Shown: piece after piece, positions 1 to 13,573 of the stretch
Layout of the letters: every line of letters starts with the position of its first letter
Numbering within the stretch: position 1 is the stretch's first letter
Assembly (NCBI GenBank): GCA_023250585.1
Contig: JAHFAK010000063.1
Location: 1-13,573 of the forward strand
Reading direction: 5' to 3'
Length of the DNA: 13,573 bases
Source: Deltaproteobacteria bacterium
Lineage (GTDB): Bacteria; Bdellovibrionota_F; JAHFAK01
Made by a program: the position numbers and the translations under genes
The notes under the pieces: model-generated
Told to the model about the DNA's origin: nothing
Seen by the model: the letters and a program-made list of their open reading frames with translations, nothing else
The model's database searches: none

Positions 1-12
1 TGACTATATGTT

Positions 13-1419
13 ATGTATATTATGGAAAGTACAAGAATTAAAAACCTGGTTAAGCATTTTATTGAAACCCATAATCTTACTGCAAAAAATGACCGAATCC
101 TCGTTGCGGTTTCAGGAGGAAAAGATTCGATCACACTTTTAGATATTCTTTCAAAATTGCGAGATTCATTATCTTTTTCTCTATGTGTTGCACATGTTGA
201 TCATAAGTTACGTAAGGATTCGAAAAAAGATGCATTGTTTGTAAAAGAATTAGCAAAAAAATATGGATTCCCTTGTTATAGTGCAGATGTGCATATTGAA
301 AAATCTAAAGGAGCACTCGAAGAAAAAGCTCGCGAAGCTCGCTACATCGCTTTAGAAAAAATGAGAAGCCGCGCTAACGCTCATAAAATTGCTGTTGCAC
401 ATACCAAAGATGACAATGCTGAAACCATGATCTTCCGTTTTTTGGGAGGATCTGCTATGCATGGTTTATCTGGTATTCAGCCTATGCAGGGTACAATCAT
501 TCGACCACTGCTGAGTCTGCAGAGAGCAGATATTGATCATTATATTGAAGAAGAAAAATTATTATTTCACGAGGACCATACAAATAAAAATAATATATTT
601 ACCCGGAATCGTATTCGACATCTTTTAATTCCTCTTATAAAAAAAGAATTTAATCCAAATATTATTGAAACACTCAATCATAGTGCATATCTTTTTTCAG
701 AGAATCATACTTTTTTGCAAAACGAAACGCACAAGATTATTAAAACATATGTGCAAAAAAAAGATAACGGCTGTTCTATCCTTGGTGCAGATTTAATGAA
801 ATATCCTAAAATTTATTGGTACTATATTCTTCGTGAAATGATAAAAACTATGATTGATTTTAAAAAAATTCGTTTTGCCTCGTTGCAAAATTTTATTAAA
901 AAACTGCAAAGTATGCAAAAAAATAGTTCGAATTTTGCTTTAAACGTATCAAAAAATGTTAAATTGAGTAAAAATTATGACACGATTGCAGTTTTATTAG
1001 AACATAGTAATAAAAGGCAAAACGCTCTATGTACGATAGAGCAGCCGGGATTCTATGAATGGAATGGAAAACAATTAGTATTGCAAGTTGCTGATAATAA
1101 TGGTAAAATAATAAATAGCATGGATAAAAATATGCTCTATTTAGATTGCGATAAAGTTATATGGCCTCTTACGGTGCGAAGTATGCAGCGAGGAGATCGC
1201 TTCAAACCGATGGGTTTAGGAGGAAGTAAAAAATTGTCTGATTTTTTTATTGATAAAAAAATTGATCGAAAAAAAAGAGATGAAATACCTCTCTTTATTT
1301 CAGATAACAACATAATTGGCGTATTTCATTATACCATTGCGCAAGGATATACCATTAGCAAAACTACAAAAAGAATTTTAACAATATCATTAGGAGGCTC
1401 TTTTGAAACAGTCACATAA
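13..1419 (+). CDS. tilS: tRNA(Ile)-lysidine synthetase TilS
   Basis: TilS uses ATP and lysine to convert C34 of the tRNA-Ile CAU anticodon to lysidine, so that the tRNA reads AUA codons; it acts in the cytoplasm. The 468-residue product has the PP-loop ATP-pyrophosphatase motif SGGKDS at residues 34-39, AHVDHKLR at about 60-67, and HTKDDNAET at 130-138. The last is the family's HxxxDQAET segment with Asn in place of the usual Gln. RPLLSLQR follows, then a long helical middle and a C-terminal domain ending in a basic, glycine-bearing stretch typical of full-length TilS. An in-frame TGA at 1-3 closes the frame. The start is ATG at 13 or the second ATG at 22; neither has a clear Shine-Dalgarno. 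The 3' end overlaps ftsH by 17 nt, and tilS-ftsH is a widely conserved pair. Confidence 0.95.
1392..1397 (+). promoter_or_regulatory. Ribosome binding site deciding the TTG start of ftsH
   Basis: A perfect AGGAGG lies inside the end of tilS, five bases before the TTG at 1403. No in-frame ATG occurs near the N-terminal membrane segment, so this site is what fixes the TTG start. It is the strongest Shine-Dalgarno noticed in the window; most other genes here have weak ones. Confidence 0.85.
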
Positions 1420-4911: not shown

Positions 4912-6306
4912 TTAAGGGTACGTAACATCTACATCGCCAATATCACTTTCACATTGTATATCGGGTAAGGAAAGATTCTTTATATCATTAGGTACAAAGG
5001 GATCGATATCGAGTGTAAGATCACTAAATGGTGAATCAGTGCTGCACACTGCTCCAGCGCCGTAAAATCCGTCTTCATTTAAGCATTGAGCGTTATCCAT
5101 GCTGTAGACATATTTAAGAGCACATAAGCCTGAGCTTGAAGAAGCGCAGATAGCATTGATATAATTTTCTAATGCAACACCCATTTGTGTATCAGTAAAA
5201 TCAGTATTTGTGCTGCACACATTGACAGGTACACTTTCATTACCAGATACTGTAGGTAATCCAAGAGTTCCACCTTTTAATGCATAGCCGAGAGTTGTAC
5301 AATTAATTTCTCCTGTTCCTGCTCGTGCATATTTAATAAATCCATCTCCAAATGCTTTTGAGATAGGATAGGTATCCCAAAAATTTTCATCAACTTCGGT
5401 TAGAGCTTCTGAAAGAGCCATATTTTGTTTTGCGATATTTTGTTCACTATCGATGATCGCAGCAAAGCTATAGACTGCTTCTGCTCCAAATGGATTGAAT
5501 CCACTCGTACTGGTTGAGATGTTTGATACATATAATCCACCATAAGTTTCGATTGTATGTGCTGCTGTTTCTGTAACCATAATTTTTATTTTATCAGGGC
5601 CAGCTGAATCAGTTTGGTTAGCATCGGTCATCGTCATAGTAATTGAACGAGGGTCGTTATTATTAAATTCAGCTAATACTTTTTTTGGCGCAGTTGGATC
5701 ATCAGCAGGTCCTTCATAAGGGTAAATATATACTTGTGCGTTAGTGAGGGCATTAGATTCATTGACGTTAAAAGAAAAATCTATCGCAGGGCAGTGTTCT
5801 CCTTGAGCATTATCCCAATAGAGTTTCAAATTATAACTAAATGCAGATCCGGCTTCATTATAGGTGACGAGCACGTAATCTGGTGCAGTAGCGTCAGTCG
5901 AATCACTAATTTTAATAAGAAGATTTTCACCTGGGGCAAGAGGATGATCTGGTAAGATAATATCAAAGGCTTCTGAGAAATTTGTCAATATTCCGCCGAG
6001 AAGGTCTGATGTGAGTGTTTCTGCAATTCCTACAAACATTTTTGGTAAGCCCAGGAAATTTGCTGCTCCTCCGACATCTTCTTTTGATTTCTTTAGTAAA
6101 AGTGAAGGTACAGCAGCATCATTGTAAGCGCTGGGCAAAGCAAGAACAGTTAAACTTGGAATGGCAAGAATCTCAGCCTCGGGGTTTGTCTCAGTACTCG
6201 TAGCAGCAGGCTCTGTCTCATCGGATGTATCTTTAATTCTTCCGCACGTAAGAATAAAGATCAGTGATAGAATATAAGCCAAGAGAGAAATTTTTACTAT
6301 TTTCAT
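4912..6306 (-). CDS. Putative secreted lipoprotein of unknown function
   Basis: The 464-residue product starts with a lipoprotein-type signal peptide: lysines at 2 and 5, a hydrophobic core at 6-19, and Cys21 followed by a polar, acidic, Thr/Glu-rich linker (about 22-48). The lipobox ILTC is imperfect, because Thr at -1 is unusual where Gly, Ala or Ser is normal. The mature part looks like a soluble, beta-rich extracellular domain with eight further cysteines, the first at residue 172 and most in the last third, an even number compatible with disulfides. I recognise no enzymatic motif or family. It lies opposite to its neighbours, ends 5 nt from cdaR, and is divergent from glmM. Its promoter is unclear: a TATATT at 6330-6335 on this strand has only a poor -35 partner. 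The ribosome site (AAGAG) is weak. Export is fairly certain; function is unknown. Confidence 0.8.
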   Translation of the reverse strand: MKIVKISLLAYILSLIFILTCGRIKDTSDETEPAATSTETNPEAEILAIPSLTVLALPSAYNDAAVPSLLLKKSKEDVGGAANFLGLPKMFVGIAETLTSDLLGGILTNFSEAFDIILPDHPLAPGENLLIKISDSTDATAPDYVLVTYNEAGSAFSYNLKLYWDNAQGEHCPAIDFSFNVNESNALTNAQVYIYPYEGPADDPTAPKKVLAEFNNNDPRSITMTMTDANQTDSAGPDKIKIMVTETAAHTIETYGGLYVSNISTSTSGFNPFGAEAVYSFAAIIDSEQNIAKQNMALSEALTEVDENFWDTYPISKAFGDGFIKYARAGTGEINCTTLGYALKGGTLGLPTVSGNESVPVNVCSTNTDFTDTQMGVALENYINAICASSSSGLCALKYVYSMDNAQCLNEDGFYGAGAVCSTDSPFSDLTLDIDPFVPNDIKNLSLPDIQCESDIGDVDVTYP

Positions 6307-11951: not shown

Positions 11952-13508
11952 TTAAGAATCACATGCATCTCCAATACCGTCGTTATCCGTATCTTTTTGA
12001 TCAGTATTAGAAACTTCGATACAGTTGTCGCATGCATCGCCGACAGAATCATTATCCGTGTCTTTTTGATGGTAGTTAGCGGTAGTAGGACAATTATCCA
12101 CATCTCCACAAATTGTATCTTCATCACTATCGTCCTTTGGGTCATACGAACATGTATCATCACTATTTAATATGCCATCACCATCAATGTCTTCGTCACA
12201 TACATCTCCAATTCCATCACCATCGAAATCTTCTTGATCAGGGTTTATAATGAGTATGCAGTTATCACATGCATCTCCCACGCCGTCACCGTTTTCTCCA
12301 TTTTGTCCATCACTGTCTAATTGGTCAGAATTTGGAAGGAGAGGGCAATTGTCTTTGCAATCAATGATTCCGTCAGAATCTAGATCAACATCAGGTATCC
12401 CGCATCCGCATTGTCCTCCACTCGTCTTATTAAGATCCTGTGGACATGAGTCATTACAATCAGCAGTTCCATCATTATCTGAATCAGTATCCGCAATACC
12501 GCATCCGCATTGTCCTGCAGTTATTTTATTCTGATCATTAGGGCATTGATCATTACAATCAGCAGTTCCATCGTTATCTGAATCAGTATCCGCAATACCA
12601 CATCCGCACTGTCCTGGGTTTTGCTTATTTGGATCCTGTGGACATGACTCATTATTTGCACAAACTCCATCTCTATCTTCATCATTTTTTGGATCATTAG
12701 GACATGTATCCTTGCAATCAACAATCCCATCAGAATCGTTATCGGTATCAGGTATCTCGCATCCACATTCGCCGGGACTTTGTTTATTTGGATCAAATGG
12801 GCAGCCATCTGATGTATCTGGGGTCTCATCGTTATCATCGTCACTATCGCAACTGTTTCCTAACCCATCATGATCAGAATCTTCTTGTCCTGCATTACTT
12901 ACCAAAGGACAATTATCGGAAGTGTCAGCAATTCCATCGTTATCATCATCATTATCACAGACATCTCCCTTACTGTCTCCATCATGATTTGCTTGATCTG
13001 GATTGAAAACATTGATGCAGTTATCATTTTCATTACAAATTCCATCTTTGTCGTTATCTCCTTTGCAATTTGAATCGCACTCATCTCCAAGACCATCGTT
13101 ATCACTATCTTCTTGTCCCGCATTACTTACAAAAAGACAGTTATCGGAAGTGTCTGGTACTCCATCGTTATCATCGTCATTGTCGCATACATCCCCGGCG
13201 CCATCTCCATCATTATTGTCCTGGTTTTGATTAGCATTTAATGGACAGTTATCACTTGTGTCTGAGACTCCATCACCATCATCATCAGAATCGCAGGCGT
13301 TACCTTGCGAGTCACCATCGGTATTGAATTGATCTGGGTTTGCTACGAATGGGCAGTTGTCAGAAGTATCAACTTTTCCATCATTATCATCGTCTGAATC
13401 ACATGCGTCTCCTTGTGAATCTCCATCGTTATTTTTCTGATCTTTATTAGCAGTGAGAGGACAATTATCTTGGGTATCGATAATTGTATCATTATCATCA
13501 TTATCGCA
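11952..13508 (-). CDS. Thrombospondin type 3 repeat protein, 5'-truncated (C-terminal 518 residues)
   Basis: This is an Asp/Asn/Cys-rich protein made entirely of thrombospondin type 3 calcium-binding repeats, a class normally found on secreted or surface proteins. Reading from 13508 downward, about seven units start with CDxDDDxDG and contain DTSDNCP, mostly 36 residues each. Next come four units starting CGC (33-53 residues; [14 protein letters not shown] and relatives), then irregular DNCP/GDACDN units. The reading ends GIGDACDS-stop with no sorting or membrane domain after the repeats. The paired cysteines and Asp ladders predict calcium-stabilised, disulfide-linked structure outside the cytoplasm. 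The frame stays open to an ATG at 13550, but the extra 14 residues are encoded by the fold-back arm (IIIIIII) and are not part of the protein. The true N-terminus and any signal peptide are missing. Confidence 0.85.
12411..12767 (-). repeat. CGC-type coding repeats including a near-identical 99-bp direct repeat
   Basis: Units begin at cysteine codons 12767, 12608 and 12509, with a further diverged one at 12410. The segments 12451-12517 and 12550-12616 are exactly 99 bp apart and differ at only three of 67 positions, so one arose by recent duplication or is kept similar by conversion. This is the part of the gene most likely to be miscounted by short-read assembly. Confidence 0.8.
12768..13508 (-). 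repeat. Tandem 108-bp coding repeats (36-residue TSP3 units)
   Basis: Reading on the minus strand, units begin at the cysteine codons at 13508, 13403, 13295, 13187, 13079, 12959 and 12851. Most are 36 codons long. The first is 35 because its Asp run is one codon short; the one at 13079 is 40 and carries an extra [11 protein letters not shown] segment; the last is 28. Units at 13187 and 12959 share [10 protein letters not shown] and are 228 bp apart, suggesting a duplication of a two-unit block. Confidence 0.8.
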
Positions 13509-13573
13509 TGCGATAATGATGATGATAATGATACAATTATCGATACCCAAGATAATTGTCCTCTCACTGCTAA
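13447..13573. repeat. Near-perfect inverted repeat (fold-back) at the window end
   Basis: The left arm, 13447-13508 (62 nt), and the right arm, 13509-13573 (65 nt), are reverse complements with no spacer. The only difference is one extra GAT triplet in the right arm, near 13521-13526. The centre is the self-complementary CGCATGCG at 13505-13512. The right arm read on the plus strand encodes the same TSP3 unit (CDNDDDND...DNCPLTA) that the left arm encodes on the minus strand. A spacer-free palindrome inside a coding repeat, running exactly to the sequence end, points to a chimeric read or assembly fold-back rather than genome structure. Confidence 0.85.

Follow-up and report, generated by a model that had tools for sequence, protein, structure and literature searches.

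A terminal fold-back at a contig end, very probably an inverted chimera, gives a TSP3-repeat lipoprotein gene a false start

The stretch of DNA analysed here (the window, 13,573 nucleotides, C128:1-13573 in an assembly of 164 contigs) closes with a palindrome, and a TSP3-repeat gene on its minus strand reads through this palindrome to the contig end. This raises the question whether the gene truly starts there or whether the palindrome is an artefact which supplies it with a false start. We conclude that the terminal palindrome is very probably an inverted chimera, formed during sequencing or library preparation, and does not represent genome sequence.

In the arm alignment the last 65 bases of the window are the reverse complement of the 62 bases preceding them, with zero spacer and with all aligned bases matching; the single gap is of 3 nt and falls in an ATC run, present in two copies in the left arm and in three in the right one. 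The exact inverted repeat anchored at the contig end is 55 nt long, against a maximum of 8 nt in 2,000 codon-order shuffles of the gene. Arms and spacer are as the original prediction described them, while the pivot, named there as GCATGC, has a larger native self-complementary core, CGCATGCG, a short palindromic microhomology of 8 nt such as an inverted chimera is expected to have. The same prediction held that GCATG(C/T) recurs in this gene, and the GATGCATGYGAY form is indeed present at three further sites in it; the codons at the pivot itself are GAC-GCA-TGC-GAT. The inverted copy extends to the last base of the contig. A genuine palindrome, or a head-to-head gene, would have unique sequence on both sides, and here nothing lies beyond position 13573. 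Coordinates of all features are collected in Table 1.

Table 1. Features of the fold-back and of the TSP3-repeat gene in the window (C50, another contig of the same genome)
Feature	Position	Strand	Remarks
Genuine 3' part of the TSP3-repeat lipoprotein gene	11952..13512	-	5' part on C50, to C50:983, minus strand
Spurious 532-residue ORF call	11952..13550	-	TTG start within the false arm
Stretch identical to the first 119 nt of C50	13318..13436	.	Shared k-mer, branch point of both contigs
First base differing from C50	13437	.	C here, T in C50; synonymous CAG/CAA (Gln); 137-nt false branch begins
Left arm, genuine TSP3 gene sequence	13447..13508	+	Allele 3 nt shorter than C50
CGCATGCG, 8-nt self-complementary pivot site	13505..13512	.	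Last forward stretch common to C50; window departs after 13512
Right arm, false inverted copy	13509..13573	+	Reverse complement of C50:130-194, 65/65 identical

What follows the pivot in the genome is given by C50. Its first 198 bases overlap window positions 13318-13512 at 98% identity, beginning with 119 identical bases, which are followed by a single SNP and then by an indel of 3 nt. C50 is devoid of the inverted copy; it passes CGCATGCG into TCTCCCCCATCG, further TSP3 repeats and the N-terminus, so that C50:1-1001 presents a true continuation past the pivot. It had been predicted that sequence clipped at the pivot would run into another TSP3 unit, and this continuation is present on C50; the reading of the palindrome as an artefact is likewise supported, as C50 reads through the pivot into the real gene front. 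Since the gene has its real front half on a different contig, we are dealing with an ordinary assembly artefact. The genome holds many TSP3-repeat genes, which would allow the two contigs to carry two different ones, with the gene of the window truly starting at the palindrome; we consider the probability of this practically negligible. The 98% identity extends over 198 nt and is located at both contig ends, whereas other TSP3 DNA matches in the genome are mostly of 67-83% identity and cover short stretches, so C50 supplies the front that the gene lacks in the window and is not a paralogue. Moreover, the two contigs join in frame into a complete gene, and a start within the palindrome would leave the product without a signal peptide.

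Joining the window contig and C50 at the overlap yields a single frame of 782 codons, uninterrupted by stops. The true N-terminus on C50, MNHLKLALFFLILLILLRC, is a lipoprotein-type signal peptide as judged by eye, and Pfam TSP_3 (PF02412) matches both halves of the gene (E 6.6e-73 and 3.6e-65) with six stretches above the cut-off in each half; the product thus combines Pfam repeats with a signal peptide, recognised by eye, at its true start, as a TSP_3 lipoprotein should. The minus-strand frame of the window crosses the pivot without a stop and runs off the contig end (539 codons); it contains no in-frame ATG, and the automatic 532-residue ORF (13550..11952) starts at TTG. The proposal of a false N-terminus at the fold-back is therefore borne out, C50 carrying both the real continuation and the real N-terminus; the expected miscall of a complete gene across the pivot does exist as the 532-residue ORF, with its start at TTG and not, as had been proposed, at ATG. 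The consequences concern annotation only: trimming the last 61 bases (13513-13573) and joining the contig to C50 restores the 782-residue TSP3-repeat lipoprotein, which replaces the 532-residue ORF with its false start.

The TSP3 gene is ordinary for this genome, in which many contigs have TSP3-repeat matches. A C50 N-terminal query gave 73 of them; contigs bearing TSP3-repeat genes include C12, C17, C22, C72, C94 and C157. Some matches are located close to contig ends (C137:136-600 and C104:465-908), and further genes of the family have therefore probably been split by short-read assembly.

The way in which the contigs were built was deduced from their ends. The survey sampled 61 contigs, 57 of which were usable (114 ends); C1, C8, C9 and C11 were left out because the 600 bases at either end consist of N only. 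Eight pairs of sampled ends overlap exactly by 119-121 nt, which suggests that short reads were assembled on a de Bruijn graph at k near 120. One of these pairs consists of the left end of the window (1-120) and the last 120 bases of contig C44 (27,590 nt), identical to each other, so that the two contigs probably adjoin or share a branch point. Similarly, C50 begins exactly 119 nt before the first base at which it differs from the window, so the two separate at a k-mer which they have in common. The branch departing from C50, 13437 to 13573 (137 nt), would fit one 150-base read. Among the 114 contig ends no other terminal fold-back longer than 12 nt was found, the next longest being of 12 nt with an 87-nt gap. 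We also considered that the length of the palindrome (62+65=127) could originate from a 127-nt k-mer, and dropped this idea because the contig overlaps show k of 119-121.

It had been left open in the original prediction whether a template switch or a palindromic k-mer path produced the structure. A pure assembly artefact, in which the assembler crosses strands via a self-complementary k-mer with no chimeric molecule involved, would agree with the self-complementary site lying exactly at the pivot, and also with the two alleles held by the arms, as a haplotype-mixing graph path would leave them. Such a path needs all junction k-mers to be native at the assembly k. Taking C50 plus the upstream contig as the native sequence, we found all junction k-mers to be native up to k = 9, while those spanning the pivot are missing, on either strand, from k = 10 up, and are not native at the assembly k. 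The native site has only 8 nt and the contig overlaps indicate k about 120, so strand bridging is ruled out for any usual assembly graph, and we regard the purely computational origin as very unlikely. A k-mer path alone being impossible at k >=10, a physically chimeric molecule is needed: as native k-mers fail across the pivot, at least one real read must hold the fold-back.

The arms themselves differ in allele. The right arm is identical throughout to the C50 allele, while the left arm has one ATC fewer, and ahead of it, at 13437, stands the other base. Judging from these sequence differences, a synonymous SNP and an in-frame indel of one codon, two strains would seem to be present in the sample. 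One molecule folding back onto itself would yield equal arms. Unequal alleles in the arms agree with strands of two similar molecules having paired, or with alleles merged in the graph. With its synonymous SNP and its indel in frame the branch also looks as a second strain would, so a rare real rearrangement there is conceivable, namely an inverted duplication in a minor strain, arisen by in-cell template switching at CGCATGCG and truncating the surface-lipoprotein gene. Template switches between inverted repeats are well established biologically (PMC8604942). Nevertheless, the right arm matches the C50 allele and not that of the adjoining left arm, the copy stops together with the contig with no unique sequence after it, and C50 has the intact gene; a duplication of this kind is, in our estimation, highly improbable.

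For the preferred inverted chimera the following course of events may be proposed. A single strand whose end lay in or near CGCATGCG would anneal to a complementary strand, belonging either to the same molecule or to a sister molecule that bears the other allele, and polymerase extension in library preparation or amplification would create a read folding back on itself. The de Bruijn assembler (k about 120) would then keep the fold-back read as a branch from 13437, attached to the contig end, and the displaced true continuation would become the start of contig C50. The chimera would have been formed in a wet-lab step, and presumably one or a few reads carried the fold-back.

Related structures have been described in several types of libraries. 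In MDA the main chimera is the inverted one, primed at 2-21 complementary bases and accounting for most of the rearrangements (Lasken and Stockwell 2007, PMC1855051); the inversion at a short complementary stretch, here of 8 nt, is alike, while most MDA chimeras have an intervening deletion and the present one has zero spacer. Palindromic chimeric reads with mismatched bases, derived from partial strands of similar molecules, occur in sequencing libraries and are explained by the PDSM model of library fragmentation (PMC10908179). They resemble our case in pivoting on natural palindromic sites and in joining strands of similar molecules, and the differing alleles of the two arms would fit strand pairing as in this model; those reads come from human capture libraries, whereas ours is known solely from a bacterial assembly. 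Hairpin-extension palindromes, described in historic and ancient DNA libraries (PMC3946424), share a read 3' end that is the reverse complement of the 5' end, yet they are interrupted and located at read ends, in contrast to the uninterrupted palindrome found here.

Several other features of the window and the genome were recorded. A 464-residue predicted lipoprotein is encoded between cdaA/ybbR-like genes and glmM (window 4912-6306, minus strand) and has no Pfam match. A scan of genome contigs with the HEAT-repeat protein of the neighbourhood gave no relative. By GlmM the organism is placed only loosely, its best match being of 56% to a deltaproteobacterial MAG, with 49-50% to Bdellovibrio-type MAGs; the nearest genome compared has no more than the class in common, a distance too great for synteny of the join to be informative. 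Outside the window a dispersed hairpin family is present in at least 27 copies (e.g. C50:1816-1932, C6:15639-15697 and three on C22), and its core motif has no copy in the window. The core is fixed, about 59 nt long (TTTCTATCGA[GT]CGCGCTTTCCTGTTCTTAATAGTATTATGGAAGCGACGTCGATAGAAA), and flanked by near-perfect inverted arms, mostly of 27-29 nt. The core sequence is absent from the one other genome of the phylum compared, and a scan against Rfam assigned the hairpins to no family, the only hits being microRNA models below threshold, which match long hairpins. Many copies are placed within a larger unit, MITE-like and with GTAAYNNCTCAGTTA as its ends, and those of C50, C24 and C68 are outside such a unit. 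Within one copy the complementarity of the arms is 97.7%, but between copies their mean identity is only 45% (minimum 7%); at arm positions 1-27 mismatches occupy 5 of 729 cells, three of them of the G-T type. With mismatches so few, and just three of them G-T, copying or homogenisation of the arms at the DNA level (template switching) seems more probable than selection for an RNA stem.
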